Below are positions 7,337 through 42,545 of a stretch of DNA of 43,064 nt, in pieces; positions within the stretch are counted from its first letter, which is position 1; each line of letters starts with the position of its first letter. This DNA is from a virus: the IMG/VR virus record IMGVR_UViG_3300044627_004107, positions 1 to 43,064 of that record. One strand, given 5' to 3'. The position numbers and the translations under genes are program-made. The notes below the pieces were generated by a model, which saw only the letters and a list, made by a program, of their open reading frames with translations, did not search any database and was not told the DNA's origin.

Positions 7337-7427
7337 TACACGCCGTGGGAATCGAACCCACCTCTCGCGGTAATCTGCCGCTAAGACCGTTTATAAGTCG
7401 GTTTGCATACCCAGATGCTAGGCGTGC
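7337..7427 (-). tRNA. Class II tRNA, anticodon by position UAU (identity uncertain)
   Basis: A cloverleaf of 91 nt can be drawn: acceptor GCACGCC/GGCGTGT, D stem GCAT/ATGC, anticodon stem ACCGA/ACGGT with an A-A closing mismatch, a long variable arm with a GCGG/CCGC stem, and T arm GTGGG-TTCGATT-CCCAC, with discriminator A and no encoded CCA. The long variable arm is typical of Leu, Ser or Tyr tRNAs. The loop CTTATAA, however, gives anticodon UAU (codon AUA) when U33 is fixed. Identity therefore remains open. It could be a diverged tRNA-Leu. Confidence 0.75.
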
Positions 7428-8343: not shown

Positions 8344-8357
8344 AATGATATTTCTCC

Positions 8358-9800: not shown

Positions 9801-9807
9801 TGGGGGG

Positions 9808-9835
9808 AGTGTATCACAAAATGCGGGGAAGTCAA
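9808..9835 (-). promoter_or_regulatory. Sigma70-like promoter for gp41
   Basis: TTGACT (9830-9835), a 16-nt spacer and TACACT (9808-9813) on the minus strand. The -10 element ends 7 nt before the ATG at 9800, which predicts a leaderless transcript. It lies in the only sizeable gap (75 nt) between the glycan cassette and gp41. Confidence 0.6.
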
Positions 9836-9875
9836 GGCTTTTGTATAACCAAGAAGGTCGCGATTTTCTCAACGG

Positions 9876-10952: not shown

Positions 10953-11641
10953 AAGACTTTCTCCTTTGTGCTCGCATTTGCATATGGAATAATCCTGTGC
11001 AAATGAAGAAGCAGCATACAGTAGTGTTCTTTGGTGTCAAACATGTCGCAAACCGAAAGTAACTTTCTCTTTGGTATATGACCCTCCCCGAAAGACCAAT
11101 AGCAAAAAGAATCTTGTAGTATCTTGGCATGATCAACTATGGGGGCATCTGCGAAAGAATCTAAAAAGTCTATTAGATAAACTTCTTCGTCAGCAACTAT
11201 GATATTTTCAAAAGTCATGTCTCCGTGACAGTATCCATCTTTCACATTCCAATCACAGGACATTATGATATTTTTGTCGTGAGTGTCAATAGAAAGAGAA
11301 TCTATTTTTTCTTTAACATTTGAGGATATGTCTATTAGAGTTTTTTGCTCAAATGACATCAGTTTTTCCAAGACTTTCATACCCACTTTGATACTTTGAT
11401 TTGTGAACACTTTTGACATGCTATATCCCCTGATGTATTTCATGTCAAAGTAAAAACGACCATCTTTATTGTATCCTGAAGACATTATAGAAGGAGTTCT
11501 GATGATTGGGTGGGAAAAGTTTATTTGCTTGTTCATCTGACTGATCAAACGGTGATTGTAATCCAAAGAAGAGGATACTTTTCTTACAATCCCGTCATAA
11601 AGATAGACGAAACAGCCTGAATGTCCTATGAGTTGAATCAT
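10910..11641 (-). CDS. Aminoglycoside/choline kinase-like phosphotransferase
   Basis: The protein has 243 residues with a protein-kinase-like fold. The Brenner-type catalytic loop YCHGDMTFEN (near residue 139) and the metal-binding YLIDFLDSF (near 160) fit the APH/choline kinase family, which phosphorylate small molecules. A glycine loop is weak (GHSGCFVYLYDG). Next to the nucleotidyltransferase-HAD fusion it probably phosphorylates the small alcohol or sugar that is then nucleotide-activated, as LicA/LicC do for choline. The substrate is unknown. The region is clearly AT-rich. A 14-bp perfect palindrome overlaps the start codon and no clear Shine-Dalgarno is present. Confidence 0.7.
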   Translation of the reverse strand: MIQLIGHSGCFVYLYDGIVRKVSSSLDYNHRLISQMNKQINFSHPIIRTPSIMSSGYNKDGRFYFDMKYIRGYSMSKVFTNQSIKVGMKVLEKLMSFEQKTLIDISSNVKEKIDSLSIDTHDKNIIMSCDWNVKDGYCHGDMTFENIIVADEEVYLIDFLDSFADAPIVDHAKILQDSFCYWSFGEGHIPKRKLLSVCDMFDTKEHYCMLLLHLHRIIPYANASTKEKVLCMMSRVRQKISRY

Positions 11642-11650
11642 TTAAATGAT
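11637..11650. repeat. 14-bp perfect palindrome over a start codon
   Basis: ATCATTTAAATGAT is self-complementary and spans the ATG of the kinase gene that starts at 11641. It could act as an operator or form a hairpin in the mRNA. It may also be chance in an AT-rich stretch. Confidence 0.4.
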
Positions 11651-11686
11651 ACGATTGAATTAACTGGAAAGCAAACCACAACCTAA

Positions 11687-12328
11687 TCATAGGGTAAAAA
11701 TTCTATCTTCTATGAAGTCACGATCAAATTTTCTGCGCAATAGCACGGTATAATCAAATCGGTTGACGGGGATGTTTCTGTTGTTGTGGCGATTGAGCAA
11801 TTCGGAGTGGCAAGGAATCCCCGAAACCACATAAGAGTTTATCTTATCATACAGAGAACAATAGTTTTCCATTATGGGTTTAGACGCGAAAGCAAGCATA
11901 TCAAATAAACCTCCGCGCCAGTCACCCCTAACAGGAACATTCAACCTTGCGGGGTCAAATGTATCAATTTTCAACGGGTTGGTGTATTTGATATCATACC
12001 GAGTCTTTAGAATGACATCGTAATGGTATTTGGTCAGAAGTTGAAATGCTAACTTCACGGTCCTCCACTGAAAAAACACACCAAGACAATCGGTTTCTGG
12101 AGGCTTGTTGCTGTAGCATTCCGAGGCGATGCTGTGTTTGATTTTTGCTTTATCTTCCACAATGCAGTCAACAGGACGAAGTAGTTCTATTGCTTTTTGG
12201 GTCGCGGGTTCCTCGTAAAGATGAAGATAAACATCGCATGAGTTGTAACGAAGTATGTTGCTCTCAAGAGAGGGATAGCAGTCCTCAAATGTTCTGGTGT
12301 CTCCACCAATGATAACGGCAACTTTCAT
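11687..12328 (-). CDS. Putative glycan-biosynthesis protein (glycosyltransferase-like)
   Basis: The protein has 213 residues. It begins MKVAVIIGGDTRTFEDCYPS, then contains VYLHLYEE and DVILKTRYDIKY, a pattern seen in uncharacterised glycosyltransferase-like proteins of surface-polysaccharide loci (the KTRYDI segment may be the nucleotide-sugar/metal site). No canonical DxD motif can be assigned with certainty. The start overlaps the stop of the acetyltransferase gene upstream (ATGA). It is AT-rich like its neighbours. Role in building the same glycan is inference from context. Confidence 0.55.
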   Translation of the reverse strand: MKVAVIIGGDTRTFEDCYPSLESNILRYNSCDVYLHLYEEPATQKAIELLRPVDCIVEDKAKIKHSIASECYSNKPPETDCLGVFFQWRTVKLAFQLLTKYHYDVILKTRYDIKYTNPLKIDTFDPARLNVPVRGDWRGGLFDMLAFASKPIMENYCSLYDKINSYVVSGIPCHSELLNRHNNRNIPVNRFDYTVLLRRKFDRDFIEDRIFTL

Positions 12329-12834
12329 ATGCTTATGGTTGAGCCTTTGAATTTGTCAATCAGTTCTTGATCTTTGAAAATCCTCACCACATGAGCGGGA
12401 TTTCCAACAACCAATGTTTTTGGTGGAACCGATTTTACAACCGTGGATCCGCAGCCAACCATGGAAAATTCTCCCAGAGTCAGACCGCACAACACCGTAG
12501 AATTTGCCCCAACAGAAGAACCCCTCTTTAGAGTAGTTTCTTCTTGTGTCCATTTGCCGTGAGATCGTGGATACCTATCATTGGTAAAAACACAATGCGG
12601 ACCCAAAAAACAGTAGTCTTCAATGATCATACCAGAGTAGATGCTCACCCCATTCTGGACACGAACATTATCACCTATGACTACTCCCGGAGCGACATAG
12701 ACATTTTGCCCGAACGAACAATTTTTTCCTATCTTTGCTCCAGAGCATATGTGCGAAAAGTGCCAAACTTTGGTTCCTTCTCCGATCTCTGCTCCGTCAT
12801 CAACATAAGAGGATTCATGTACAAAGTAGTTCAC
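12325..12834 (-). CDS. Left-handed beta-helix N-acetyltransferase (WlbB/WbpD-like)
   Basis: This 169-residue protein is built from hexapeptide repeats ([LIV]-G-x4), visible in GAEIGEGTKVW, GAKIGKNCSF, GVVIGDNVRV and GSSVGANSTV. The segments KVWHFSHI and the CVFTNDRYPRS loop resemble UDP-2-acetamido-3-amino-glucuronate N-acetyltransferases (WlbB/WbpD), which acetylate an amino sugar nucleotide in O-antigen synthesis. Translation probably starts at GTG (12834) with AAAGGGA upstream. Length is close to WlbB. It supports synthesis of an aminated, acetylated sugar by this locus, although the matching aminotransferase is not in the window. Confidence 0.82.
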   Translation of the reverse strand: MNYFVHESSYVDDGAEIGEGTKVWHFSHICSGAKIGKNCSFGQNVYVAPGVVIGDNVRVQNGVSIYSGMIIEDYCFLGPHCVFTNDRYPRSHGKWTQEETTLKRGSSVGANSTVLCGLTLGEFSMVGCGSTVVKSVPPKTLVVGNPAHVVRIFKDQELIDKFKGSTISI

Positions 12835-12847
12835 AGTCTAATCCCTT

Positions 12848-13723
12848 TCAAAAAGAGTAAATGTTGGCCACATTGGGAATGGCATCGTATATCAAATTCA
12901 TATCAGGATTCGATGAGAATGGACGAACAGAATGATACTCAGTAAACCGAGATGCTCTAATTCCTGATATGATATCATTTGTGATGGGAATGGCTCCATT
13001 GAACCTATCAATTCTTCCACACGCCCAATGTTTTGCAAAAAAGTCTTTAACCAATAAAATAGGAACTGGAGATGTATTATTTTTCAGGTGTTCCTGTAAG
13101 ATGTAAGAGGAGTAAACCTCATCCATCCCCCACAATGTACCTTCAAGCCCTTTGGGGGCATCTCGTAAGACAATTTTCATCACTTCTTCGTGATTAAACA
13201 CTTTAATTAGTTCTTCTTCCCACCTATCCTGAATAGAATAGATTTGTTTGAAGAATCTGCCCAGTCCAACATGGTGAGATGAGGGAAAAGACCAAGCACC
13301 GGCATGATTGTAAGCATCAGAAAATCCAACAACATACTTTTGTCTAGCATCTATGTTGTTTATCAATTCATAGAAACGGCCACTCAGTGGAATTTGATCT
13401 ATTCCGGAAAGCATGCAGACATCATTTGGAAATAGACTTGCTCCATAAAAGAGACCCCATGTGCAAGTCCAATCCAAGTTTGGACTGAAAGCGACCCCAG
13501 CAACTCTCGGCAACAGAACAATATCCCCATGATTGGTGGATAGTCGCCCAGACTTCATCAATCCACCCAATTCTTCTTCTGTCCCAGAGAACATCAGGGT
13601 GGCTTTAGTGTCAAATTTTTCCGAATAAACCTTTGAAATGTAGTTCCAAAAACCGATGTAGTTTTCGTTGTTGTTTAGGCAGAAAATTGCTCTGTCCACA
13701 ATCCTATTTGCGAATCCAATCAC
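12848..13723 (-). CDS. Unrecognised protein of the glycan cassette
   Basis: The protein has 291 residues and no family I can name. Visible features are MLSGIDQIPLSGRFYE, a GFSDAYNHAGAWSFPSSHH stretch with several His and Trp residues, and GLEGTLWGMDEVYSS, which is like segments of proteins that read nucleotide-sugar or monosaccharide substrates. Translation starts at GTG (13723) overlapping the upstream TGA (GTGA), with AAAGGA before it. It is AT-rich and flanked by a CgeB-like glycosyltransferase and an acetyltransferase. Glycosyltransferase is a reasonable guess from context only. Confidence 0.55.
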   Translation of the reverse strand: MIGFANRIVDRAIFCLNNNENYIGFWNYISKVYSEKFDTKATLMFSGTEEELGGLMKSGRLSTNHGDIVLLPRVAGVAFSPNLDWTCTWGLFYGASLFPNDVCMLSGIDQIPLSGRFYELINNIDARQKYVVGFSDAYNHAGAWSFPSSHHVGLGRFFKQIYSIQDRWEEELIKVFNHEEVMKIVLRDAPKGLEGTLWGMDEVYSSYILQEHLKNNTSPVPILLVKDFFAKHWACGRIDRFNGAIPITNDIISGIRASRFTEYHSVRPFSSNPDMNLIYDAIPNVANIYSF

Positions 13724-14592
13724 GAAGCACCGATCCTTTCAATGCACAACAAGATTTTTTCTGCTCTCTCAGCGTATGTATGCCTCTCCAGAAACAACTG
13801 CCTACCCGCATCGCCAATTGAAGCGAACTCCGGAGATCCGATCATGTTAATTGCTTTAGTCACAACCCGAACCATGTCTCGCTCGTCCGTGTAGAAGAAG
13901 CAGTTGACCCCGTCCACGAACCCCAACTCCAAGTACTCGGGGCTGTAGTTCGTGACCAAAACCGTCCCACATGCGAGCGTCTCAAACGATCGGTAATTGA
14001 TGTCGTTAGCGATGTTCATGTTGAAGTGGATGTGGTAGGAGTTGATGGCTCGCACCATATCCTCCCCGATCACGAAGATGTCCTGCTTCAATCCAAACAC
14101 TTGAGACAGCAGATTCACCGCCTGCTTTCTCTGTGGCGTTACATGGTTGCCACAGAAGCCGATTCTGTGGGTCTTGGCTACTGTAGGCATGGGTTTAACC
14201 AGAGATGCATCGGTGCAGTTAGGCAACCAGAGATGATGCTTCTCTCTCACATACGCCTTTGTGGAATGGGCGAGGATGTCGTACTTGCCGTTTCGGAAGA
14301 TCCTCTCGTAGGGTTCCTGCCCGCGTACATGCGCGTCTATGCACCAGATCATCTTGAACGGCCTGCTCCATCTGGACATGTCGGGCAACCACTCATCTCC
14401 ATAGTTCTCAAGGTTGATGACCAAATCGTACAGGTTGAAGTCTGGAACTTCACCAAAGTTCTCATGTCCTTTGCCCCATATCACGCAGTCGTGACCCATG
14501 GCATCAAAGGATCTCTTCAGGCAACAAGATTCCCTGAAATTCCGATTGGCATCATGGCGACCTCTCTCTTGAATAATGATTATTTTGCTCAT
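13720..14592 (-). CDS. Glycosyltransferase family 1-like (CgeB / Glyco_trans_1_2)
   Basis: This 290-residue protein has a GT-B layout. The C-terminal half contains HFNMNIANDINYRSFETLACGT and LVTNYSPEYLELGF, the nucleotide-binding region typical of CgeB-like glycosyltransferases (E in SFETLACG contacts the nucleotide sugar). The N-terminal half has Rossmann-like segments (MIWCIDAHVRG, YDILAHSTKAY). The protein would act in the cytoplasm, adding a sugar to a lipid, glycan or protein acceptor. It starts at 14592 with a weak GGAAA site. Base composition is nearer to the phage average than its left-hand neighbours. Confidence 0.8.
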   Translation of the reverse strand: MSKIIIIQERGRHDANRNFRESCCLKRSFDAMGHDCVIWGKGHENFGEVPDFNLYDLVINLENYGDEWLPDMSRWSRPFKMIWCIDAHVRGQEPYERIFRNGKYDILAHSTKAYVREKHHLWLPNCTDASLVKPMPTVAKTHRIGFCGNHVTPQRKQAVNLLSQVFGLKQDIFVIGEDMVRAINSYHIHFNMNIANDINYRSFETLACGTVLVTNYSPEYLELGFVDGVNCFFYTDERDMVRVVTKAINMIGSPEFASIGDAGRQLFLERHTYAERAEKILLCIERIGAS

Positions 14593-14612
14593 TTAAAGTT
14601 TCCATCATCAAT

Positions 14613-15263
14613 TCAAGAACGAACCATGATGATGTTCTCTGCGTTGAGGATGAGAACAGAGTAACCCATCTGGACAAACTTGGTCTGGAGGAGTTGCCAC
14701 TTGCCGTCCTGCTCAATGCAAAGGATCTTGCATCCGTAGTTTCTGGGGTCAAACCAGTCTTGAAGTGCCAACTTCGCAGAGTACCCCTCAACATCAATGT
14801 TGATGAGATCAAAGGTCGGACCGAAGCGAGACATGAGTTCTTTCATGCCCACCTTCCCGACAAACACCTTTCTGGGATTGACCGAATCTCCATCCGAATT
14901 GACCTCGCTGTACCACCTCTGTACATGCCCATCAACGGATGAGGAGCAGGCACTCATCGGAGATTCGTGGAACTTCAGGATGGGAGAACCGTCCAACTCG
15001 TCCTCGGGAACCACTGCCAGATTGATCAGTTCCGCCCGTCTGGGTTCCATCTTGTAGAGATCAACCAGTTTGCAGAAGCAGTACGATGATGGCTCAACGA
15101 ATACCCCCGACCACTCAGGATACTTGACCATCAACCCTCGCACATTGCTGAATCCCTCTCCGTCGTAGGCACCGATCTCCAACAGCCTTCCAGTGGTCAG
15201 GCTTCGCTTGGAGATGTAATCAAGGATGATGTCTTGTTCGTTGTTCTGTGAGTATTTTTTCAT
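14613..15263 (-). CDS. FkbM-like methyltransferase
   Basis: The protein has 216 residues. YSQNNEQDIILDYI at the N-terminus, the SAM-binding LLEIGAYDGEGFSN near residue 30, and INIDVEGYSAKL with KILCIEQDGK downstream are characteristic of the Methyltransf_21 (FkbM) family. Such enzymes often O-methylate sugars in glycan loci. The ATG at 15263 has AAAGGA upstream. Stop and next start are separated by 20 nt. Function on the locus-specific glycan is inferred from neighbours. Confidence 0.8.
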   Translation of the reverse strand: MKKYSQNNEQDIILDYISKRSLTTGRLLEIGAYDGEGFSNVRGLMVKYPEWSGVFVEPSSYCFCKLVDLYKMEPRRAELINLAVVPEDELDGSPILKFHESPMSACSSSVDGHVQRWYSEVNSDGDSVNPRKVFVGKVGMKELMSRFGPTFDLINIDVEGYSAKLALQDWFDPRNYGCKILCIEQDGKWQLLQTKFVQMGYSVLILNAENIIMVRS

Positions 15264-15302
15264 TGCGAATCCTTTGTTTTGATTGTGGTTGCTGCCATAG
15301 AC

Positions 15303-15998
15303 TTACGATGGGTTTCGTGTATGTAGAATGTACGGATTGGGGTTTCCGAATTGAGTCATGTCTTCTAGCAGGCAAACTCCATCCCTGATGCACAACAGGC
15401 TCATGATGCTCTGATCGTGTCTGTGATCTGCGAACTCTGGGTAGTTTGGTTTGCCTTGTGTGTTAGGTAAGTCGGTTAGTATACGAGGATCGCAGCACCA
15501 ATTCAACCACCTGCGAACAAAATCAACCGAGAAAGCAGTTTTTTTGCAGAGAAATATGCTTGCCATTCTATGCCCTGAATCGGTATATTTCTGCTCATCC
15601 ATTCCCATCAAGACGAATGCATCCCTCTTGCAAAATTGCTTGTTTGTTCCACAAACGCCGAAGGTGGCAATTCCCGCTTCACCAATCAAACTTTCCGTGG
15701 ACTCTATCCATTCCCATGGGTTTCTTACGAAATGCATACCCGAATCAGTGTACATGATCCAATCCCCGTCTTCGGCACCCTCAAGCGTTTTGCTTATCAG
15801 ATAAGGTTTCCAAATCCAATATCCGGCACCTCTGGTCTGAAAAAATGTATAGGAGTTCTGCTTTATAAATGTTGGATTGATGTCCGCGTGACAATAGGGA
15901 ATGCTTTTGTCAAATCCACCCACAGAGATCGCCGACGAACAGCAGTTTTTCTGTGAGTTGAGATACCTGCCATGGGCGTAGTTGATATGAATCTTCAT
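15303..15998 (-). CDS. Glycosyltransferase-like protein (RGAGYWIWKPYLI motif)
   Basis: The protein has 231 residues. The segment TRGAGYWIWKPYLI followed by DWIMYTDSGMHF (a DSG metal-binding candidate) is a pattern I know from uncharacterised glycosyltransferases in viruses and bacteria. DHRHDQSIMSLL near the C-terminus is another conserved-looking segment. AGGAGT precedes the ATG at 15998, and the upstream gene's TAG stop is part of that ribosome site. The gene is AT-rich. Confidence 0.65.
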   Translation of the reverse strand: MKIHINYAHGRYLNSQKNCCSSAISVGGFDKSIPYCHADINPTFIKQNSYTFFQTRGAGYWIWKPYLISKTLEGAEDGDWIMYTDSGMHFVRNPWEWIESTESLIGEAGIATFGVCGTNKQFCKRDAFVLMGMDEQKYTDSGHRMASIFLCKKTAFSVDFVRRWLNWCCDPRILTDLPNTQGKPNYPEFADHRHDQSIMSLLCIRDGVCLLEDMTQFGNPNPYILHTRNPS

Positions 15999-16007
15999 TC
16001 CAAACTC

Positions 16008-16652
16008 CTAAAACTGCGGGTTGTCGTTCTCGTCATACACCTGACCCACAAAATGCTTTGGGTCTCTAGGAATAGGAAACGACTTTCGTGCAAAAAACTC
16101 GTCATGTTCAATCATGTCTCTCTGTGCAATCGGCAGAATTGAATGGGTGAGGAAATCCTGATCCAAGCCAAACAAAGAACTGCGGGTCAGTCCTTGCTTG
16201 TAATATGAATCAATCAATCCTCGCATGTTTTTGATCTTGCCACCAACAGCACCCCACATCCCACCCATGATCGGCGTTCCGTGTTGGGGGTGATCCCGCA
16301 TCATATGAAATCCCTTACCCGAGGATATCCATTCCTGAACCGCCATGGCTTCTCGCTGCCCAATTCTGGAGTCGGCATCCCTGAAGATACAACGCTCTAC
16401 TTCAGCGTCATCAATTGCATAGAATCTCCAGAACATAGACCAGTGGGATTCTTCTGATGCTTTCATCACAACTACCTTTGTGTTATCCAACAATTGGAGT
16501 GACGCGACCACCTCATCAGGGACTGTATCTCCATCGCAGTAGAATCGGCATTCCCATCCTCTATAGTAGATGCTCGCCAGTCTGGCGTTCTTGAGGGCAC
16601 CTACCGTGTACTTGGGCTTGTCGCCCCAAAGGCTGAAAGACACCACATTCAT
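16008..16652 (-). CDS. Glycosyltransferase-like protein (GT-A, DxD)
   Basis: The protein has 214 residues. It begins MNVVSFSLWGDKPKYTVGAL. FRDADSR near residue 90 is a DxD-type metal/nucleotide-sugar site, followed by MMRDHPQHGTPIMGGMWGA and LDQDFLTH, typical of small GT-A enzymes acting on capsular or O-antigen chains. I chose the ATG at 16652, which has GAGGGAGA upstream, over an in-frame TTG at 16667. It stops 10 nt before the next gene. Confidence 0.7.
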   Translation of the reverse strand: MNVVSFSLWGDKPKYTVGALKNARLASIYYRGWECRFYCDGDTVPDEVVASLQLLDNTKVVVMKASEESHWSMFWRFYAIDDAEVERCIFRDADSRIGQREAMAVQEWISSGKGFHMMRDHPQHGTPIMGGMWGAVGGKIKNMRGLIDSYYKQGLTRSSLFGLDQDFLTHSILPIAQRDMIEHDEFFARKSFPIPRDPKHFVGQVYDENDNPQF

Positions 16653-16663
16653 TCTGATCTCCC

Positions 16664-17473
16664 TCAAGGTACGGCATAATCTTTATCAAACAGGTGGAAA
16701 TTTTCTCTCGCGATGTAACTCGGTTTTCTGTAATGAAGCATTGTCAGTTCTTGGGGAGAGGCCAACTTCCAATTCATTCCTACAGACCATGTATCAGAAT
16801 CTTCTTTTGGCTGAATGGGAGAAGAGCATTCAAACTGTTTCTCTATATCCACTCCGCAGGCATGGATGTTTGGACCGTAGTAATTGATAGGAGATTGAAA
16901 CAGAATGTTTGATTTGGGATGAGAAAGATCGCAAAAGGATTTGAATGACATCCTTTCCGATTTGAATCTATTACCTGTGCTCATTGATCGGGTAGTTTGC
17001 TTCAACAACGGAATAGAATTGTTGGGATCAAATCTATCAGAATCAACTTCAAACGAACACACAGATACCATCAGGTATCCAGACAAAGATTGCATCATCT
17101 CTTCCGATAGACGATTTGATCTTCTCAATACAAACTCATCTACATCAAAAAATCCAAGAATCGTAGAAGTTCCGTAACTATCCAGAACTATTTTGTGAAT
17201 CCGTTTGAAGTTTGTTGATATTGATGATGCCAGATGAGAATTACCGGCGTACGATTGTGTATCTTTGGAGTTATGAAACTCTGTTGGTGTATACGAGGAA
17301 TCTATCACCTTGCAGTTGATGCCTTTGACTGATCGTATTTTTTCAACAGAGTCGTCGGATGAGTGATCATTGCATAGAACGAAATCCCGAATTCCTCTAT
17401 CCCGATAATACTCAAGCCATTCCACTAGTCTAGAACTTTCGTTCTTGAATTGATTTGCAAGCACTATTTTCAT
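16664..17473 (-). CDS. Family 2/92-type glycosyltransferase (Glyco_tranf_2_4-like)
   Basis: The protein has 269 residues. The N-terminus ANQFKNESSRLVEWLEYYR and FVLCNDHSSDDS match the conserved opening of the Glyco_tranf_2_4/GT92 group (N-E..R..EW..Y....G...F...D..S.D.S). GFFDVDEFVL near residue 108 is the DxD metal site, and LHYRKPSY is the usual C-terminal signature. It would transfer a sugar in the cytoplasm. The start overlaps the glf stop (ATGA), so it is translationally coupled. AT-rich compared with glf. Confidence 0.8.
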   Translation of the reverse strand: MKIVLANQFKNESSRLVEWLEYYRDRGIRDFVLCNDHSSDDSVEKIRSVKGINCKVIDSSYTPTEFHNSKDTQSYAGNSHLASSISTNFKRIHKIVLDSYGTSTILGFFDVDEFVLRRSNRLSEEMMQSLSGYLMVSVCSFEVDSDRFDPNNSIPLLKQTTRSMSTGNRFKSERMSFKSFCDLSHPKSNILFQSPINYYGPNIHACGVDIEKQFECSSPIQPKEDSDTWSVGMNWKLASPQELTMLHYRKPSYIARENFHLFDKDYAVP

Positions 17474-18570
17474 GATGAAATTCCAGATTCCTTTTCGGCT
17501 CGCACCAAAGCAGATCCAACAACTTGATGCATATCGTAGTACTTGTAATCCGCCAGCCTACCACCCATTATGTATCGCTCCGTGTCCACCATGTCGCGAT
17601 ATGAACGATAGAGATCGTTGTTTTTCTCGTCGTTCACAGGATAGAACTTCTCCCTTTCCGGTGTCCAATCCTGCGGGAACTCCTTCGTGATCACCGTGTG
17701 ATCCTGCTTGCCGAACTCAAAGTGCTTGTGTTCGCACATGCGAGTGAAGGGAACATGTTCCTCTGTATAGTTGATGACCGCATTGCCCTGAGCGTCCCCC
17801 TGCAAGAGTTGATGCTCAAACCGAAGACTTCTCCACTCCAGCCTGCCCTTCTCACATGAGAAGAACTCATCTATAGGACCGGTGTAGACGATACGCTTCG
17901 CTTTTGTATTCAGGTGATCCCTATCCTTCAGGTAGTCAACCCCTGTCTCCAAGGGAATGTCCTCCAAGAGCCTCTCAAAGATGGCGGTGTAACCCCCGAT
18001 GGGTATCCCCTGATACTTGTCGTCAAAGTAATTGTCATCGTAAGTCAACCTGATTGGCAGTCGTTTGATGATGAATGAGGGAAGATCTTTGGGATCTCGG
18101 TTCCACTGCTTTTTGGTGTAACCGTAGATGAACTTGTGGTATATCTCTTCTCCGACTTGAGAGAGCACCCATTCCTCAAGATTGGAGGGGTTCTCAATTG
18201 GGATCTTCACTTGCTCTAACTTCCGCCTCGCTTGATCGGGAGTGATTGCACCCCACAACTGATGTAGGGTGAACATGTTGATGGGAAACGAGTAGATGGA
18301 GTTGCCGTGTCTCACCTTCGGGCGGTAGACGAAGTGATTGAACCTCGTCCATCTGTTCATGTACTCCCATACACGATCGCTGCTGGTATGGAAGATATGA
18401 GGGCCATATTCATGGACATGGATTCCCTCCACATCTCTGGTGAAACAATTACCACCGACATGATTCCTCTTGTCCACGACGAGACATTTCGCTCCCTTGT
18501 CGGTCATCTGGCGAGCAAACACCGATCCAAAAAGACCCGATCCCACTATGAGATAGTCGTACATGATCAT
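17470..18570 (-). CDS. glf: UDP-galactopyranose mutase
   Basis: This 366-residue FAD enzyme converts UDP-galactopyranose to UDP-galactofuranose. The FAD-binding motif is YLIVGSGLFGSVFA at the N-terminus, followed by VDKRNHVGGNCFT, HEYGPHIFHTS and the substrate loop YGYTKKQW, all typical of Glf. YRPKVRHG and GGRLADYKYYDMHQV near the C-terminus also fit. Length matches bacterial Glf (about 370). The start overlaps the upstream stop by ATGA. Its presence shows that the glycan probably contains galactofuranose. The sugar nucleotide could come from the epimerase at 7435-8343. Confidence 0.93.
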   Translation of the reverse strand: MIMYDYLIVGSGLFGSVFARQMTDKGAKCLVVDKRNHVGGNCFTRDVEGIHVHEYGPHIFHTSSDRVWEYMNRWTRFNHFVYRPKVRHGNSIYSFPINMFTLHQLWGAITPDQARRKLEQVKIPIENPSNLEEWVLSQVGEEIYHKFIYGYTKKQWNRDPKDLPSFIIKRLPIRLTYDDNYFDDKYQGIPIGGYTAIFERLLEDIPLETGVDYLKDRDHLNTKAKRIVYTGPIDEFFSCEKGRLEWRSLRFEHQLLQGDAQGNAVINYTEEHVPFTRMCEHKHFEFGKQDHTVITKEFPQDWTPEREKFYPVNDEKNNDLYRSYRDMVDTERYIMGGRLADYKYYDMHQVVGSALVRAEKESGISS

Positions 18571-19163
18571 CTCGCAACTTGAAAGTTGTGGGTCTCCTCA
18601 AAGGTCTTCTTGCACTGGTACATGTAGATGATGCCCTCAATCCACTCCTCCCGACGCAGGAGCGGGCGCACGCCCATGGAGAACACCCGGTCCTCTCCGC
18701 TGTTGATGGACGGGAAGCCCACCTGAACCGCCAGAGACCGCCTGATGGCGTTCAGGTGATTCGGGGGTCGGTAGTAGACCTTGCCTTCGTGGTCATCAAT
18801 CCAGCGATCGTAGCGAAGCGAATGGATGAAGGGGCGGCTGTATCCGTCCGAGAAGGTGATGGAACCGGTTAGGGAGGTGCAGTCAGGGTTCTTGGTGAGA
18901 CCGTTCATCACCTTCTCAATGTAGTCCACACTGACGGCATCGTCATCATCCACGAAAGCGACATACTCTCCGCCCGACTGGGTGAGGAGCATGTTCCTCT
19001 TCTGTCCGATGGTCAACTCGCGATTGTCGGCGAGGTGCAGCACCTGAACCGTCCTCGTTCCGATCTGCCGGTCAATAGAGGCTCTCAGGGCATCAAGCGA
19101 CTGCTTGCGTTCGTGCAACGATGGAATCAATACTGACAGTTTGTGGGAGGGTTTCCAAGGCAT
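18567..19163 (-). CDS. Family 2 glycosyltransferase (GT-A)
   Basis: The protein has 198 residues. LSVLIPSLHERKQSL opens a GT2 fold, EYVAFVDDDDAVS near residue 70 carries the DxD site, and GEDRVFSM fits the later acidic catalytic segment. The first 71 nt overlap the end of the neighbouring gene in another frame. The start at 19163 is supported by GAGGAAAT and by the GT2 N-terminus beginning right there, so the overlap appears real. It ends overlapping glf. Confidence 0.8.
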   Translation of the reverse strand: MPWKPSHKLSVLIPSLHERKQSLDALRASIDRQIGTRTVQVLHLADNRELTIGQKRNMLLTQSGGEYVAFVDDDDAVSVDYIEKVMNGLTKNPDCTSLTGSITFSDGYSRPFIHSLRYDRWIDDHEGKVYYRPPNHLNAIRRSLAVQVGFPSINSGEDRVFSMGVRPLLRREEWIEGIIYMYQCKKTFEETHNFQVAR

Positions 19164-19869
19164 GGGCGATTTCCTCTGGTTTCAGGTCGTAGTTGTTGAG
19201 AGTCCGCTGGGCATAGACGGGTCCATCTTGGTTGTACATGTCCTGCGACTCGTTCCTCTTGTGCAACTCATCGTTGGTGAACTGTCCCGTCCACTGGTGC
19301 TGGATGATCACCTTGTCAATGTAGACCACCTTCCCGAGCATGCGGGCGACATTGGTGAACTCATTGTCGGGGAACACGGACTTGTATGCAGGGTGGTACA
19401 GGTAGCCGAAGCGGTTGAAGTACTTCATGCCGAGGATGGACAGGGTGATGAGTCGGTCCACTCCCGAATACCCGTCGTTGAAGTGCAGCACCCCATCGGT
19501 GTCGGGGAAGTGCTTGAACATGTAGTGCTTGATGATGTCATCGTAGCCACCCTCCACGGGGATCATGTCATCGGATGCGAGCAGGATCACATGTGGGTTG
19601 ATGGCACGCACGACATTCAGGTCGGCGTTGACCGCGGAGATCTTGCTGGTTGACTTGCCGCAGATGGGATGGATGCGACCCATGTGCTGGGCACACAGCC
19701 GGTCAAAGTAAGACCACATGTTCTGGTTGTTCATTGACCGGTCATCGTGGTCGTAGGAGATCACGAAGTGAACCTCGTTGGTCCCCGAGAGGTAGCCGAG
19801 ATACCGATCAAGGACGGACATGAACTTGTCCGGTCTGTTTCTGGTCGGGAACTTGACCACCATCTTCAT
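19093..19869 (-). CDS. Glycosyltransferase-like GT-A protein
   Basis: The protein has 258 residues. It begins VVKFPTRNRPDKF, resembling the first strand and loop of GT2 enzymes, and contains VILLASDDMIPVEGGYDD (DxD-like). FNDGYSGVDRL and IIQHQWTG follow in the second half. I chose the ATG at 19869 (GAGGAGAG upstream) rather than an upstream TTG-type start. The start overlaps the stop of the acidic protein upstream (ATGA). The 3' end overlaps the next glycosyltransferase by 71 nt. Confidence 0.7.
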   Translation of the reverse strand: MKMVVKFPTRNRPDKFMSVLDRYLGYLSGTNEVHFVISYDHDDRSMNNQNMWSYFDRLCAQHMGRIHPICGKSTSKISAVNADLNVVRAINPHVILLASDDMIPVEGGYDDIIKHYMFKHFPDTDGVLHFNDGYSGVDRLITLSILGMKYFNRFGYLYHPAYKSVFPDNEFTNVARMLGKVVYIDKVIIQHQWTGQFTNDELHKRNESQDMYNQDGPVYAQRTLNNYDLKPEEIAHALETLPQTVSIDSIVARTQAVA

Positions 19870-20411
19870 GGCTTGCTCTCCTCGTCGCCTTCCTTGTGCC
19901 ACTCGTCCACGAACTTGACGCGGTCGCTCTGTGAGTAATCCATCGCGTAGTTCTTGGCACGGGCAAATAGGTCGGGGTCAATCTGCTTGACATACTCGCT
20001 GAAGTTCATGAAGAGGTTCCAGAGGGCTTCGGCGACCTCCTCCTCGTCTTCCTTCTTGATGGCGTTGGGATCCTCGTCACCGGAGTCTCGGTCGCCGTCC
20101 TCCTCGTCCTCGTCGGGGTCGCGTGGCTCGCTGACCGTCTCCACGATGTCATCGGCGCAGTCCTGCTTGAACTCGTCCAGAGTGCAGCCGTAGACCATAC
20201 AGGGGGTTCCCTTGCCGAAGTAGGCGTTGAGGGAGTTGCTCTCAATGAACTCAACCGCCTCATCCTGATTCATCCCGTCCCGTTCCATCAGGATGTCCAT
20301 GCATGCCTGATAGTCATAGACAGCGATGGGGTACTTCTGCCCGACCTTGCGTAGCCCGCCGACAAAAGCGTCCTCAAACCCGTTCATGAGAATGGTTCCT
20401 TCTTCAGGCAT
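19866..20411 (-). CDS. Conserved hypothetical phage protein with acidic linker
   Basis: The protein has 181 residues. Residues about 20-75 (AVYDYQACMDILMERDGMNQ, then EAVEFIESNSLNAYFGKGTP) form a small helical module common in T4-like and other large phages. A strongly acidic segment (DPDEDEEDGDRDSGDED) links it to a C-terminal helical region. The start at 20411 lies inside the end of uvsX and has GAGGGGG upstream; a second ATG at 20387 is possible. No function known. It separates the recombinase gene from the glycan cassette. Confidence 0.6.
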   Translation of the reverse strand: MPEEGTILMNGFEDAFVGGLRKVGQKYPIAVYDYQACMDILMERDGMNQDEAVEFIESNSLNAYFGKGTPCMVYGCTLDEFKQDCADDIVETVSEPRDPDEDEEDGDRDSGDEDPNAIKKEDEEEVAEALWNLFMNFSEYVKQIDPDLFARAKNYAMDYSQSDRVKFVDEWHKEGDEESKP

Positions 20412-21453
20412 TGGTGTCCCCCTCTTCGGCTCCCATGATTTCCATGTTGCCCACCGAGTACTTGCTCTTGACGAACTCGCCGAACGAGGCATCGGTCAGG
20501 ATGGGCATCCAGAAGTCCTTGCTATCGGTGTCATTCATGCGGAACTTCTTGTCCTCCACCTCACCGGTCTTGGAGTCCACGCGGGAGTACCATCCGTTGG
20601 ACGGCTTCACCACATGCCCCGACTCAATCGCCATGTCAAGCAGACCGCTCCAGCGACTCAAGCCATCGTCAAACGATACCGAGATCGGAATCTTGGAACG
20701 CTCCTTCACATAGCGGGACTTCTCCACATTGATGATGAAGTTGTAACCCGTGACCTCCGTGCCGTCCTTCTCCTGCTGCCGACCGAGGATGAAGATGGTG
20801 TCGGCGGAGTAGTAGGAGCCGGTGCCGCCACCGACCACATCCTTGGCATACAACTCCATGGTCTTGTAGGTGTGGTTCACCACGACCATCGGGATGTCCT
20901 TGAGGGTCAGGTGCGGCGTGACCATGCGGAACAGCGACTTGATCTGCTTCGCACGGGTCATGTCAGCGACCGCCTTCTGGTCAAGTGCGTCCTCCACTTC
21001 CTTCTTGGAGGCGAGATTGCCGATGGAGTCAATAATGATCATGACCCGCTCGCCACGCTCAATGTCCTTCAACTGGTTCATGATGTCAAACTTGAGTTCC
21101 TCCACATCCTTGACGGGGGTATGGATGACCCGCTTCATGTCAATGCCGAAGGTCTCAAAGTAGTTGATGGGCGTGCCAAACTCCGAGTCGTAGAACAGCA
21201 TCACGGCATCCTCGTACTTGTCAAGGTACGCCTTCGCCATGAGCAGGGAGAACAGGCTCTTGAAGTGCTTGCTCGGTCCCGCCCACATGGTGATGCCGGG
21301 GACGAAGCCACCGTCAAGCCGCCCAGAGAGGGCGACATTGATGGCAGGAACCGATGTTGTGATCATGTCCTTCTTGTTGAAGAACTTGGATGAGAAGAGA
21401 ATCTCCGTGTCCTTGATGGTGGAGTTCTTCTTCAGTTTCTGGATCAGACTCAT
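20404..21453 (-). CDS. uvsX: UvsX RecA-like recombinase
   Basis: This 349-residue RecA-like ATPase performs strand exchange in recombination-dependent replication. Walker A is GPSKHFKS (T4 UvsX has the same GPSKxFKS form), Walker B is MIIIDSIGNL, and VVNHTYKTMELY and GGGTGSYYSAD correspond to the L1/L2 regions of UvsX. The C-terminus is acidic, as in RecA-family proteins. Length is near that of T4 UvsX (about 390). The ATG at 21453 has GTGAGGTTTACACC before it, a leader shared with the dUTPase gene. Confidence 0.95.
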   Translation of the reverse strand: MSLIQKLKKNSTIKDTEILFSSKFFNKKDMITTSVPAINVALSGRLDGGFVPGITMWAGPSKHFKSLFSLLMAKAYLDKYEDAVMLFYDSEFGTPINYFETFGIDMKRVIHTPVKDVEELKFDIMNQLKDIERGERVMIIIDSIGNLASKKEVEDALDQKAVADMTRAKQIKSLFRMVTPHLTLKDIPMVVVNHTYKTMELYAKDVVGGGTGSYYSADTIFILGRQQEKDGTEVTGYNFIINVEKSRYVKERSKIPISVSFDDGLSRWSGLLDMAIESGHVVKPSNGWYSRVDSKTGEVEDKKFRMNDTDSKDFWMPILTDASFGEFVKSKYSVGNMEIMGAEEGDTNA

Positions 21454-33488: not shown

Positions 33489-33560
33489 CCGGTCTGACAG
33501 GATTTGAACCTGTAACCACCGTCTTAACAGGACGACGCACTACCGTTGTGCTACAGACAA
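33489..33560 (-). tRNA. tRNA-Asn(GUU)
   Basis: 72 nt. The anticodon loop CTGTTAA gives GUU, stem TCGTC/GACGG; T arm ACAGG-TTCAAAT-CCTGT; D stem GCAC/GTGC; discriminator G, as expected for Asn. The acceptor helix (TTGTCTG/CAGACCG) has one T-C mismatch and a terminal wobble, so it may be slightly degraded. It immediately follows tRNA-Gly. Confidence 0.85.
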
Positions 33561-33565
33561 CCGAA

Positions 33566-33637
33566 AGCGGGCGAAGGGATTCGAACCCTCGACACCTTGC
33601 TTGGAAGGCAAGAACTCTACCGCTGAGTTACACCCGC
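33566..33637 (-). tRNA. tRNA-Gly(UCC)
   Basis: 72 nt, with a perfect-looking cloverleaf: acceptor GCGGGTG/CGCCCGC, anticodon stem TTGCC region with loop CTTCCAA giving UCC, and T arm AGGG-TTCGAAT-CCCT. No CCA encoded. It is followed 5 nt later by tRNA-Asn and driven by the promoter at 33656-33684. Confidence 0.92.
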
Positions 33638-34280: not shown

Positions 34281-34306
34281 TGGAGTCGGGGGGAATCGAA
34301 CCCCCG
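34281..34306 (-). other. tRNA 3'-half-like element (T arm + acceptor 3' strand)
   Basis: Read on the minus strand: GGGGG-TTCGATT-CCCCC followed by CGACTCC-A, exactly the layout of a T arm, 7-nt acceptor 3' strand and discriminator. The 5' partner GGAGTCG is not found in the expected 45 nt upstream; that space holds a promoter instead. It may be a tRNA remnant or a mimic inside the leader of the downstream phosphoesterase. Confidence 0.5.
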
Positions 34307-34329
34307 TGATGTCATGTTTACTGTGGTGC

Positions 34330-34358
34330 ATTCTACGCTAATATCCGTCGCTTGTCAA
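34330..34358 (-). promoter_or_regulatory. Strong sigma70-like promoter
   Basis: TTGACA (34353-34358), 17-nt spacer, TAGAAT (34330-34335). It would transcribe the tRNA-like hairpin and the metallophosphoesterase. A perfect hairpin (34359-34388) abuts the -35 element. Confidence 0.7.
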
Positions 34359-34627
34359 GACCCGCCGCCGACGGCAACTGAGCGGGTCATGTTGGAGTCT
34401 TTGGTTCTCGGACCTTGGTGGGCGTTCCGTTCCGCAAGGTCCAATCCTCTGTTTTCTCCTTCTACCCTAGAGGAGTCAGGTAGTCGGAGGTCAGGCTGCG
34501 AGAGCGAGACGGTAGGGCTGCTTGTTGGCAGTTCTAATTTCCATGTCTTGTTGCGGGGCGAACATGGTTCCCCGTAGCGCATCACTCATCAATTCACATG
34601 CATTCGATACCTTTACGACCCCTTGGT

Positions 34628-38012: not shown

Positions 38013-38083
38013 AGCCCCTACTCAGAATCGAACTGAGTTCTCATGATTACAAATCAAGTGTAATACCGTTATACTATAGGGGC
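38013..38083 (-). tRNA. tRNA-Thr(UGU)
   Basis: 71 nt. Acceptor GCCCCTA/TAGGGGC, anticodon loop TTTGTAA giving UGU, T arm CTCAG-TTCGATT-CTGAG, discriminator T. One mismatch in the anticodon stem. It lies 3 nt before tRNA-Lys in transcription order. Confidence 0.9.
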
Positions 38084-38085
38084 AG

Positions 38086-38158
38086 CATCCCCGGCAGGAC
38101 TCGAACCTGCGACAGGCGGTTTAGAAAACCGCTACTCTATCCACTGAGTTACGGGGAT
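38086..38158 (-). tRNA. tRNA-Arg(UCU)
   Basis: 73 nt. Acceptor ATCCCCG/CGGGGAT, anticodon stem GCGGT/ACCGC with loop TTTCTAA giving UCU (AGA codons), T arm GCAGG-TTCGAGT-CCTGC, discriminator G. First of the Arg-Thr-Lys-Glu tRNA run, 8 nt after the stop of the gene upstream. Confidence 0.93.
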
Positions 38159-39135: not shown

Positions 39136-40206
39136 TTATAGTCCACGATAACCCAAGTTTCTGGCTACCTTGGGATCAATGCCCTTTGGCGATCTGGCTA
39201 GTGCCATAACCGCTTGCTTTTCTTTTCTCTTCACGAACTTGCTCGCCCCCTCCGGATCATTCTCAAAGTCAAGTTTGGGCGGGGGTGCCAATTTGCCAAT
39301 GTAGTTCTGTACGGCTGCAAGACCATTGCGACTCATCTGTGGCGAACCCGCGTTCTTGATGCGGAAGTAGTTGATCTTCGCGAACACGGGAACCTTGAGG
39401 TCTCTGTCAAGGGTATGGACCTTGCCATACTTATCCTCAATTTCCGATCCCTTGGTATAAGTGATGCTGCCACCCTTGGAGCCACCGATGATGACTACCA
39501 CATCTCCGTTGATGCCCATCTTGCCGTAGTTCTTAAACACCACCTCTTGCATGGTCTTGGCTGCACCTGCATGTGACTGGAGAACGATGTGGGAGTTCAC
39601 CACACGATCGCGGCTGAGATTCTGCTGCATCGCGATCTTGTAGTCGGTGAGGATCCAGACGATGTGAATGTCATCTCTTTTATATCCGGCGTTCTTGAGT
39701 TGGGTGAGGATCCCCTCCTCGCTCGCGTCACCAAACAGCGTCTCGGGATCTTTCATGGTCACATCAAACATGACATTCGGCATTTGCATGGCACCACCCT
39801 TTCCTGCGAACAGGTAGGTGATCTTCTTCTGCATGAGATTCATGCCCTTGACGAGCATGTGGAGCGTGGATGTGTCCTTTGGATTCTTCAGGTCAAGATC
39901 GGAGATATCCTTGAGGACTTGACCGAGACGCTCGCTCCCGACTTGCGTCTTCTTGTCACGCACCTTGAGCAGGAGATCCTTGAAGTCATCGGGATTGATG
40001 ACCTTGTACAACTCTCCCTGAAGCAGATGGGTTACAGCGAAGCCCTTGCCCGAACCGGCACCACCAGCGAGGATGACTGCCTGTCCATACTTCTTTCCCT
40101 TGCCGAGCACGACAAGTGCCTCGTTCAGTAGGGTGGACATCTCCTCGTTCAGCGTGTCCTCATGAGCCTTGCGACCCTCGTCTCTTATGGTGTCAAATCC
40201 CTTCAT
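39136..40206 (-). CDS. P-loop kinase (zeta-toxin/polynucleotide kinase-like) with capsid-targeting-like N-terminus
   Basis: The protein has 356 residues. Walker A is GGAGSGKG at 48-55, followed by VINPDDFKDLL and NVMFDVTMKDPETL and IHIVWILTDYK, as in zeta-toxin/T4 polynucleotide kinase-type P-loop kinases. LNE cleavage-like sites are at residues 19-21 and 27-29 after an opening MKGFDTIRDE. A CTAAATA element lies 19 nt upstream, and AGGAGA precedes the ATG. Its substrate (nucleotide, nucleic acid or cell-wall precursor) is unknown. Internal-head packaging is inference. Confidence 0.65.
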   Translation of the reverse strand: MKGFDTIRDEGRKAHEDTLNEEMSTLLNEALVVLGKGKKYGQAVILAGGAGSGKGFAVTHLLQGELYKVINPDDFKDLLLKVRDKKTQVGSERLGQVLKDISDLDLKNPKDTSTLHMLVKGMNLMQKKITYLFAGKGGAMQMPNVMFDVTMKDPETLFGDASEEGILTQLKNAGYKRDDIHIVWILTDYKIAMQQNLSRDRVVNSHIVLQSHAGAAKTMQEVVFKNYGKMGINGDVVVIIGGSKGGSITYTKGSEIEDKYGKVHTLDRDLKVPVFAKINYFRIKNAGSPQMSRNGLAAVQNYIGKLAPPPKLDFENDPEGASKFVKRKEKQAVMALARSPKGIDPKVARNLGYRGL

Positions 40207-40414: not shown

Positions 40415-40872
40415 ACGGGCAACTTGGGGTCGGGGGACTTGAAGTCCGGCTTCTTCATCGCGGTGACCATGACGAGGCTCATGGCACGGACGCGGTCATC
40501 CCACTTCAGGACGAACGGCATGTTGAGGGTCTTGCTCACATCGTGGATGATGGCCTTCCAGTCGGTGTCGTGGTTGCGGATCTTCGCTGCATACTTGGTG
40601 TAGGTCTTCCGGAAGGCATCCTGCAACTCGGGGAGGGAGATCGTGCCGCCGTAGCCACGGGAGCCGTTGATGCGTTCATGGAAGTGACGGGTGAATGCGA
40701 TGTCCAGTCCCGCCTGCTTGAACATCGCGTCAAGAACGCTCTCCAGCCGCTTGAGATCGTTCCATGCGATGGGTGTCCCCGCGGGCGCGTACACGCCCCC
40801 GAGCGGGCGCACGCCCGTGCCCGTGCGCGTGGTGACGATGGCCTCGTTCATGTGTTGCTTGAATGTTCTCAT
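40411..40872 (-). CDS. Conserved phage protein with capsid-targeting-like N-terminus
   Basis: The protein has 153 residues. The opening MRTFKQHMNE followed by A is a near-ideal capsid-targeting/gp21-type peptide. The body (FTRHFHERINGSRGYGGTIS, HDTDWKAIIHDVSKTLNMP, VLKWDDRVRAMSLVMVTAMK) has conserved-looking His and Trp residues; I recall it from T4-like marine phages but know no function. A GC-rich repeat-like insert (GVRPLGGVYAPAGT) lies at residues 20-33. The start overlaps the upstream stop (ATGA). Confidence 0.65.
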   Translation of the reverse strand: MRTFKQHMNEAIVTTRTGTGVRPLGGVYAPAGTPIAWNDLKRLESVLDAMFKQAGLDIAFTRHFHERINGSRGYGGTISLPELQDAFRKTYTKYAAKIRNHDTDWKAIIHDVSKTLNMPFVLKWDDRVRAMSLVMVTAMKKPDFKSPDPKLPV

Positions 40873-41144
40873 CGCTTCCTTGACTGCCACTTGGGCGTGA
40901 GGGGTATGCTATTGTCCATAACGGCGTTCGGGGAATTTGCGGATGCCGCCTTGAGCCACCGGAGAAGGTGTGTCCTGCGAGTGGTCGCGTTCTCGGCATT
41001 GGTGACTTCCCATGGCTTCATCTTGCTATGCTTTTCCCAATGTTCAATGTCAAAGTTGCCGGACACCACATCCACCGCAAAGTCCTTGCCGTAGGACAGC
41101 ATGTTGGTATCCATCTCAAACAAGAATTGCCGGAACGATCTCAT
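40869..41144 (-). CDS. Small protein with capsid-targeting-like N-terminus
   Basis: The protein has 91 residues. MRSFRQFLFE followed by M is a capsid-targeting-like start. The rest (IEHWEKHSKMKPWEVTNAEN, HLLRWLKAASANSP) is unrecognised. The ATG at 41144 is 5 nt from CTAAATA with only CGGAC between, predicting a leaderless late mRNA. It is coupled to the next gene by ATGA. Confidence 0.6.
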   Translation of the reverse strand: MRSFRQFLFEMDTNMLSYGKDFAVDVVSGNFDIEHWEKHSKMKPWEVTNAENATTRRTHLLRWLKAASANSPNAVMDNSIPLTPKWQSRKR

Positions 41145-41149
41145 GTCCG

Positions 41150-41156
41150 TATTTAG
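41150..41156 (-). promoter_or_regulatory. Late promoter-like CTAAATA 5 nt before ATG
   Basis: CTAAATA lies just downstream of the terminator at 41161-41192 and 5 nt from the ATG at 41144. A terminator followed by a new promoter fits a transcription-unit boundary. Confidence 0.6.
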
Positions 41157-41160
41157 GGCA

Positions 41161-41192
41161 AAAAAGAAGGGAGAGCCGATAAGGCTCTCCCC
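41161..41192 (-). terminator. Rho-independent terminator
   Basis: GGGAGAGCC-TTATC-GGCTCTCCC (minus strand; stem 41170-41192) followed by TTCTTTTTT. It ends the outer-membrane protein/51-residue membrane protein unit. Confidence 0.92.
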
Positions 41193-41228
41193 TCCATATA
41201 CCGCTCTTCGGTTATTAGTTATTGGTTA

Positions 41229-41384
41229 TCAGAGCGGAAGTGCGGCAAAAGCCGAGGTCAGGGCACTCCAGAGAACCTTCGCACCAGCGAGGGCAAACGG
41301 GAGGACGGCGAGGAAGACCACGACATGGACGGGGTTCTTCCAGCAGAACGAGTGACCAGAAACGGGGCAGTTATTGTTCTTCAT
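41229..41384 (-). CDS. 51-aa membrane protein
   Basis: Short ORF read from the minus strand. It begins MKNNNCPVSGHSFCWKNPVH and continues VVVFLAVLPFALAGAKVLW, then SALTSAFAALPL. The N-terminal part is polar with two Cys and one Trp; the middle (residues 21-39) is one transmembrane segment. AAAGG lies 10 nt upstream of the ATG. It follows the beta-barrel gene by 35 nt and precedes a strong terminator, so the two form one unit. Confidence 0.65.
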   Translation of the reverse strand: MKNNNCPVSGHSFCWKNPVHVVVFLAVLPFALAGAKVLWSALTSAFAALPL

Positions 41385-41419
41385 TGTAGTAGTACCTTTC
41401 TAGGTTTGGGGTTGTGAAA

Positions 41420-42181
41420 TCAGAACTCAATGCCAATCCCAGCCGTAACGACATAATCATTCTCATCGCCATTCACGCTCTGGGAAATCGGAAGAAGAAC
41501 ACCGGCATTGAAGTTGATGTTCTTCGTGACATGCCACTTGGCCGAAGGACCAAGGAGCAACTGATACTCGCTGCTGTCAACATAGTACTGCTGAACGAAG
41601 TCAGCGGCAACAGCGAGTTCCTTCGTGAACCACCAAGAGAGGTTGCTCCCGAAGTTGAGGATGTCCGAGTCGGTGAAGTTACCGAGCAGCGGAACGAAAG
41701 CATCCGTGCCAACGAACTTGTAGTCCACGCTCTGCGAGAAAGCAAGCGAGTCGGCGACATCGGCTGAGAACTCCGCACCAAAGAACGGGTTCACATTGTT
41801 GGATGAGAACACGGTTTCGGTGGGAATGTCTACGCCACCGTGGACATCAAGCGACCAGTTCTTGAACACGCCGAGCAGCGTGCTGCCGGACATCGCGTCC
41901 GCGTTGGCCGAGAGCGTCACATCGCCGATATTGGTGTTGCTTCCCTGATTGTAGACGGGAACCATCACGCTGACGGTGAACGCATCTGAGAGATCTAGCG
42001 ACAGGCTAGTATCAAATGCAGCGAGACCTTCGGTGCTTCCATCAAAGCCGTAGTAACCGAAGTCTTCGCTTAGGGTCAACTTGAAATCGTTGACCGGAGC
42101 CGGGGCAGGAGTTCCCTGTGCAAGAGCGGACGATGCCACTGCTGCCGAAAGGAACGCTGCCGTGCTTGTGAGTCTGATCAT
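41420..42181 (-). CDS. Predicted outer-membrane beta-barrel protein with signal peptide
   Basis: The protein has 253 residues. Residues 1-21 form a signal peptide (MIRLTSTAAFLSAAVASSALA). The rest is alternating polar/hydrophobic beta-strands with aromatic girdles (DFGYYGFDGS, TVSVMVPVYNQ, NPFFGAEFSADV, NFGSNLSWWFTKEL) and a C-terminal strand ending in Phe (VTAGIGIEF), the classic BAM signal. AGGAGG precedes the ATG at 42181. It has a strong sigma70-like promoter and a downstream terminator. A phage-encoded outer-membrane protein could alter receptors, block superinfection or change permeability. These roles are inference. Confidence 0.8.
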   Translation of the reverse strand: MIRLTSTAAFLSAAVASSALAQGTPAPAPVNDFKLTLSEDFGYYGFDGSTEGLAAFDTSLSLDLSDAFTVSVMVPVYNQGSNTNIGDVTLSANADAMSGSTLLGVFKNWSLDVHGGVDIPTETVFSSNNVNPFFGAEFSADVADSLAFSQSVDYKFVGTDAFVPLLGNFTDSDILNFGSNLSWWFTKELAVAADFVQQYYVDSSEYQLLLGPSAKWHVTKNINFNAGVLLPISQSVNGDENDYVVTAGIGIEF

Positions 42182-42232
42182 GTAAACCTCCTGTGTTGGA
42201 TGTTGCTTCCCGACTCTAGGGAAGTGGAGGTA

Positions 42233-42261
42233 TGTATACCCGATGGCCGGGGGGCGGTCAA
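42233..42261 (-). promoter_or_regulatory. Strong sigma70-like promoter for the outer-membrane protein
   Basis: TTGACC (42256-42261), 17-nt spacer, TATACA (42233-42238). The predicted leader (about 45 nt) contains AGGAGG before the ATG at 42181. Confidence 0.75.
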
Positions 42262-42301
42262 GCGAAATTCGCGAAGCCGAATAGATTATCTATGAATCGG
42301 C
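42262..42301. repeat. Two inverted repeats upstream of the outer-membrane protein promoter
   Basis: GCGAAATTCGC (42262-42272) touches the -35 element; GCCGAATAGATTATCTATGAATCGGC cannot be shown in full but its arms GCCGA and TCGGC (42276-42301) enclose ATAGAT/ATCTAT. They could be operator sites or, in the opposite orientation, part of a terminator followed by TTTTT. Confidence 0.5.
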
Positions 42302-42326
42302 GTTTTTCGGTGTAGAAACAGCGTTT

Positions 42327-42545
42327 TTATCGCGAATTCTTCCGTCGCTCAATCGCCTTCAGGAGTGCCCCGAGGGAGTACAGGAACGAGATGACCCACA
42401 CCGAGGTGTACTCGCTCACGCCCGCGAGTCCGTGTGCCACCCAGAACCACAACAGAGGGAAGAGGGATGCAAAGCCCGCACCTGCGAGGAGGATGAGGAC
42501 GGTCAGGGCTGCGTAGCCGAAGTTGGTCAGGCGGTCGTTTTTCAT
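42327..42545 (-). CDS. Small two-transmembrane protein
   Basis: The protein has 72 residues with two hydrophobic segments (YAALTVLILLAGAGFASLF and EYTSVWVISFLYSLGALL) and a basic tail (KAIERRKNSR). The size and topology resemble small holins or inner-membrane accessory proteins, but no lysis gene is adjacent, so the call stays open. A TAGAAT -10 candidate is 7 nt upstream of the ATG at 42545, so the mRNA may be leaderless. A terminator for the previous gene is directly upstream. Confidence 0.55.
   Translation of the reverse strand: MKNDRLTNFGYAALTVLILLAGAGFASLFPLLWFWVAHGLAGVSEYTSVWVISFLYSLGALLKAIERRKNSR

Follow-up and report, generated by a model that had tools for sequence, protein, structure and literature searches.

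Outer-membrane proteins made by phages are scattered and mostly unexplained. In T4-like marine phages, the outer-membrane amyloid-secretion pore CsgG is encoded beside thyX and tmRNA, and a function in lysis timing has been proposed (PMC9004378). On the bacterial side, COG4313 channels have a conserved cluster in loops L2-L4, described as a putative lateral exit (PMC4493636), and the β5-β6 loop has a PTG motif at its base in both the COG4313 channel Pput2725 and FapF, the secretion channel for functional amyloid in Pseudomonas (PMC5557850).

The window analyzed here is the whole 43,064-nt stretch of the IMG/VR record IMGVR_UViG_3300044627_004107. Its DNA polymerase is ~50% identical to enzymes of T4-like cyanophages, and a related 168-kb contig carries gp23 together with the locus studied here, in line with the T4-like phage of the original prediction. 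Judged from sequence comparison and structure modeling, this locus is very probably a bicistronic unit of a channel-type barrel, homologous to COG4313/Phenol_MetA_deg/FapF, and a ~50-aa membrane protein that represents a new family. The pair has no counterpart among described phage systems and is carried by many uncultured T4-like phages. As with CsgG/CsgF of pelagimyophages and the methylophage Melnitz, the barrel would be an outer-membrane pore of secretion type in aquatic T4-like phages; CsgG, however, is an unrelated protein that forms an oligomeric pore, whereas the phage barrel is a single chain of 12 strands with a different small partner.

Barrel fold and bacterial relatives

The barrel ORF (42181-41420, minus strand) starts with ATG, is preceded by the Shine-Dalgarno sequence AGGAGG (42187-42192, minus strand) and encodes 253 aa. 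The product carries a Sec signal peptide (residues ~1-22, MIRLTSTAAFLSAAVASSALA, with the cleavage site after SALA and before Q) and has Phe as its C-terminal residue; neither this protein nor its small partner contains a lipobox. An AlphaFold2 model with 14 relatives shows 12 strands at high confidence (pLDDT 87.5, pTM 0.77), which bears out the outer-membrane barrel with signal peptide and terminal Phe proposed earlier. An alignment of 3 sequences gave a pLDDT of only 30. Residues 1-29 are modeled with low confidence (pLDDT <50), and in this part no N-terminal lumen plug like that of COG4313 and FapF was recognized.

Among solved structures, the best match to the barrel is FapF (VIA-align Z 23.3, 2.2 Å over 203 residues). 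The COG4313 channel Pput2725 (4RL8) aligns with Z 22.4 and 2.0 Å over 207 residues, followed by KdgM (Z 20.1) and autotransporter barrels (Z 19.1 or less). A library of viral structures returned a fold match, i.e., other phages have other barrels, with no good alignment to this one (TM 0.5 or less by query).

Bacterial relatives were also found at the profile level. A phage barrel profile matched proteins of Myxococcota (2e-9 for one genome), and two of the four examined are members of Pfam PF13557, with 43 and 41 bits at a cut-off of 22. Comparison of the phage barrels with this Myxococcota set by hhalign gave a probability of 97.7 and an E-value of 1.5e-12 over 232 columns. On this profile evidence, the phage barrel is homologous to the COG4313/Phenol_MetA_deg superfamily. 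The PF13557 gathering cut-off itself was not reached: the window barrel gave no match, and the best member of the barrel family had an E-value of 0.0029, so that despite the superfamily homology we do not file the barrel as a plain PF13557 member. Searches of Pfam, PHROGs, NCBIfam and PDB sequences yielded no reliable match for the barrel or the small protein; hits to a Fab light chain, NAGidase and mutacin were judged to be due to chance.

The phage barrel and the COG4313/PF13557 channels thus share a 12-stranded barrel, a full-length profile match, the conserved L2-L4 cluster and a Pro-Thr/Val-Gly motif at the β5-β6 loop. In contrast to these channels, the phage barrel is shorter (~230 aa in its mature form versus 270-320 aa), scores below the Pfam threshold, has no recognizable plug, is phage-borne and comes with a small membrane-protein partner. 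In FapF, the closest structure, the base of this loop has the PTG motif; FapF also has a coiled-coil domain, for which the short Pro/Ala-rich N-terminus of the phage barrel leaves no space, and is encoded in the fap operon rather than in a two-gene cassette. Within the phage family, P120 at the base of the β5-β6 loop is invariant (29/29 barrels), and 19 of the 29 have PTG or PVG there, with PTE in the window. Conservation among the loops is highest in L3 and L4, whose information content equals or exceeds that of the strands, followed by L2. Divergence was too great for a pattern scan of the deep barrel alignment. Three Gln residues (Q150, Q197 and Q234; barrel at 41420-42181) are nearly invariant; from the strand alternation, their side chains would face the lipid or a neighboring subunit and possibly mark an oligomer interface.

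A conserved two-gene cassette

The gene behind the barrel gene, separated from it by 35 nt (41229-41384, minus strand), encodes the single-pass membrane protein of 51 residues noted earlier. It has the family motif C-P-x(n)-FCW[KR]NP-x-H and a hydrophobic segment at residues 21-39. Barrel searches among viral contigs had returned one allele with 89% identity, one relative with 69% in another gene context and one with 41%; as the latter also has an adjacent small protein, the small protein was chosen as search probe, which retrieved first 15 and then 43 viral contigs. The resulting family consists of proteins of ~50 aa with one hydrophobic segment, in which Cys6, F13-C14-W15, A26 and P29 are invariant and K16, N17 and P18 nearly so. 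Most members are more positively charged on the N side of this segment, from which an N-in orientation is inferred.

A barrel-profile search of the loci found the barrel gene directly upstream of the small gene in 37 of 42 testable contigs (L055 was left out, as this contig ends at the small gene). Five contigs have the small protein and no barrel at the locus (L032, L033, L038, L039 and L047), and whole-record searches of two barrel-less contigs (146 and 150 kb) found no barrel elsewhere. Conversely, L002 has a barrel gene with no adjacent small gene and a degenerate relative of the small protein 13 kb away. The two proteins are therefore not strictly obligate partners. In total, the barrel is represented by 33 distinct ORFs and the small protein by 36; neither gene was matched in PHROGs or in 50,697 cultured-phage records.

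With dN/dS values of 0.05-0.25, both genes show purifying selection, which together with the conservation of the small-protein family argues that the 51-aa ORF is not a chance frame. No cellular relative of the small protein was found in genome contigs or in 398 sampled Pseudomonadota genomes, and by sequence it represents a new family. Five matches in genome contigs were rejected, having only FCWxNP[IV]H in common in unrelated frames, and two marginal matches in the Pseudomonadota genomes were not accepted as relatives. In comparison with the close relative L001, a block covering the cassette and the gene that follows it (40865-42310) is ~88% identical within flanks of 99-100%, indicating an exchanged segment; the window has others as well. 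A segment of ~1.5 kb (36965-35464) present in the window is missing from L001, i.e., an insertion or deletion between close relatives.

Promoter region, leader and terminator

Downstream of the small gene lies an intrinsic terminator (41165-41195, minus strand) of 13 pairs followed by the T run TTTTTGCCC. A terminator no more than 90 nt past the small gene is present in 29/29 distinct loci; random positions of these contigs had one in about 1.1% of cases, and no shuffled sequence reached the same score. The terminator of the window is strong, as proposed. In the 25 barrel-bearing loci of this test, the two genes are 15-47 nt apart. Upstream, a 5′-UTR hairpin overlooked in the original prediction (CTTCCCTAGAGTCGGGAAG, 42224-42206, minus strand) begins just past the −10 box, and most loci have an equivalent at the 5′ end of the leader. 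Taken together, the pairing of the genes, the terminators, the hairpins and the low dN/dS identify a conserved bicistronic cassette, in agreement with the separate transcription unit suggested from the window alone.

The promoter is less clear-cut. The proposed TTGACC-N17-TATACA is present, with the −35-like TTGACC at 42256-42261 (minus strand), 17 nt from the −10 at 42238-42233, and matches 9/12 consensus positions. The −10 lacks the usual final T, the −35 is missing in many relatives, and a consensus promoter scan did not call this promoter. A −35 of this quality is rare in shuffled upstream DNA (p about 0.01), and a significant −35 was found in some loci only, the window among them. Overlapping the window promoter is TATACATA (42231-42238, minus strand), which matches the T4 late box at 7/8 positions. 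Relatives without a −35 have the boxes CTAGATA, CATAAGTA, TATAGATA or TATAAATA, and in T4-like contigs bearing the cassette, TATAAATA or CTAAATA precedes structural genes. The cassette boxes TATACATA, TATAAGTA, TATAGATA, CTAGATA and TATAAATA hence resemble the late promoters of structural genes in the same phages. With this resemblance and the many relatives lacking a −35, the early expression originally proposed is not supported as it stands. The upstream inverted repeat is real, as an imperfect palindrome (CCGAATAGATTATCTATGAATCGG, 42277-42300) whose core ATAGATTATCTAT is kept in L001; it is a possible operator, and could also have arisen by chance.

Possible roles in the infected cell

We consider it an even call that barrel and small partner alter the envelope permeability of the infected cell. 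During infection, the barrel would pass through Sec, be inserted by BAM and form a gated channel, a function to which we give slightly less than even weight. A common fold alone does not show transport. The small protein would be an inner-membrane component whose Cys/Trp motif faces the cytoplasm and which regulates the barrel or couples to it, so that the two together would change the traffic across the envelope. Transport would most likely be inward, with small or amphipathic molecules taken up as has been suggested for COG4313; export comes second. We rank uptake or permeability first because the barrel descends from a family of transport channels and because it is the patch related to transport that is conserved, ahead of superinfection exclusion and of a lysis-timing pore.

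Exclusion of superinfecting phages, part of the original prediction together with receptor masking, could operate in two layers, with the barrel masking, jamming or replacing a receptor and the small protein blocking DNA entry at the inner membrane, where the T4 exclusion protein Imm acts. The small protein resembles Imm and T5 Llp in being a small envelope protein made by a phage; no sequence relation to either was found for the cassette proteins, and Llp is a lipoprotein, unlike the cassette proteins. Llp, which jams FhuA, is nevertheless a precedent for exclusion (PMC9586334). The occurrence of the small protein without the barrel, the exchange of the cassette as a block between close relatives and the σ70-like −35 in the window are all consistent with exclusion. 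However, this −35 is not conserved, the homologues of the barrel are transport channels, and the barrel is under strong purifying selection and shows the same conservation in its long outer loops, L3 and L4, as in the strands, unlike a variable surface mask. We regard exclusion as possible, though unlikely.

Even less probable is a late envelope pore that times or completes lysis, as proposed for phage CsgGF. The gene neighborhood offers a parallel to the CsgG setting: thyX, the neighbor of csgGF in Melnitz, directly precedes the cassette in two loci (L012 and L017), and a tmRNA gene is found close to the cassette in the window as well as in L001, L004 and G005. Some of the boxes also look like late promoters. 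On the other hand, the promoter class is ambiguous between σ70-like and late, no endolysin or spanin was recognized beside the cassette, and the small protein is little more than one hydrophobic segment. That the cassette is a captured host gene of no use to the phage, as the homology of the barrel to bacterial channels might suggest, is highly improbable, given that both genes evolve under strong purifying selection and that the cassette layout is conserved while the barrels share only 22-40% identity.

Returning to altered permeability, aquatic T4-like phages may have independently recruited unrelated secretion-type pores for a dedicated envelope route, an idea we consider rather unlikely. 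If it is true, CsgGF of pelagimyophages and the FapF/COG4313-type channel with its microprotein would represent an undescribed step of the lytic cycle. Both genes are strongly conserved and occur together in 37 viral contigs, the barrel has a solved structural relative, and the microprotein serves as a search probe. With such a defined two-gene unit, the reason why T4-like phages place a channel in the outer membrane of their host becomes testable.

Several features of the neighborhood were noted in addition. Just upstream of the cassette, a 72-aa protein that probably has two membrane segments (42327-42545, minus strand) is retained in L001. On its other side, a 356-aa P-loop protein (39136-40206, minus strand), identical in L001, is at the threshold of the Pfam family Zeta_toxin and belongs to PHROG 5268 (unknown function). 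A scan of neighboring genes for T4 internal-protein targeting sequences was dropped, as only two ORFs of the window had the pattern. Two loci of unrelated context have a gene for an Hsp20 small heat-shock protein close to the barrel (L002, 9675-10076; L019, 3422-3910). The tmRNA of the window (34281-34622, minus strand) has the tag ANKQPYRLALAA and lies among tRNA genes; the tags in L001, L004 and G005 differ. The tRNA genes for Thr, Arg, Asn and Gly form clusters downstream of the cassette at 38013-38158 and 33489-33637, and further tRNAs in the window include Leu, Glu and, at 7337-7427, a tRNA-Ile call of 91 nt. Judged by eye only, a long run of genes at 8358-20492 (minus strand) looks like sugar/glycan and glycosyltransferase genes, among them a UDP-galactopyranose mutase-like gene (17470-18570) and an acetyltransferase-like gene (12325-12834), and is adjoined by a gene that resembles an NAD-epimerase (7435-8361).
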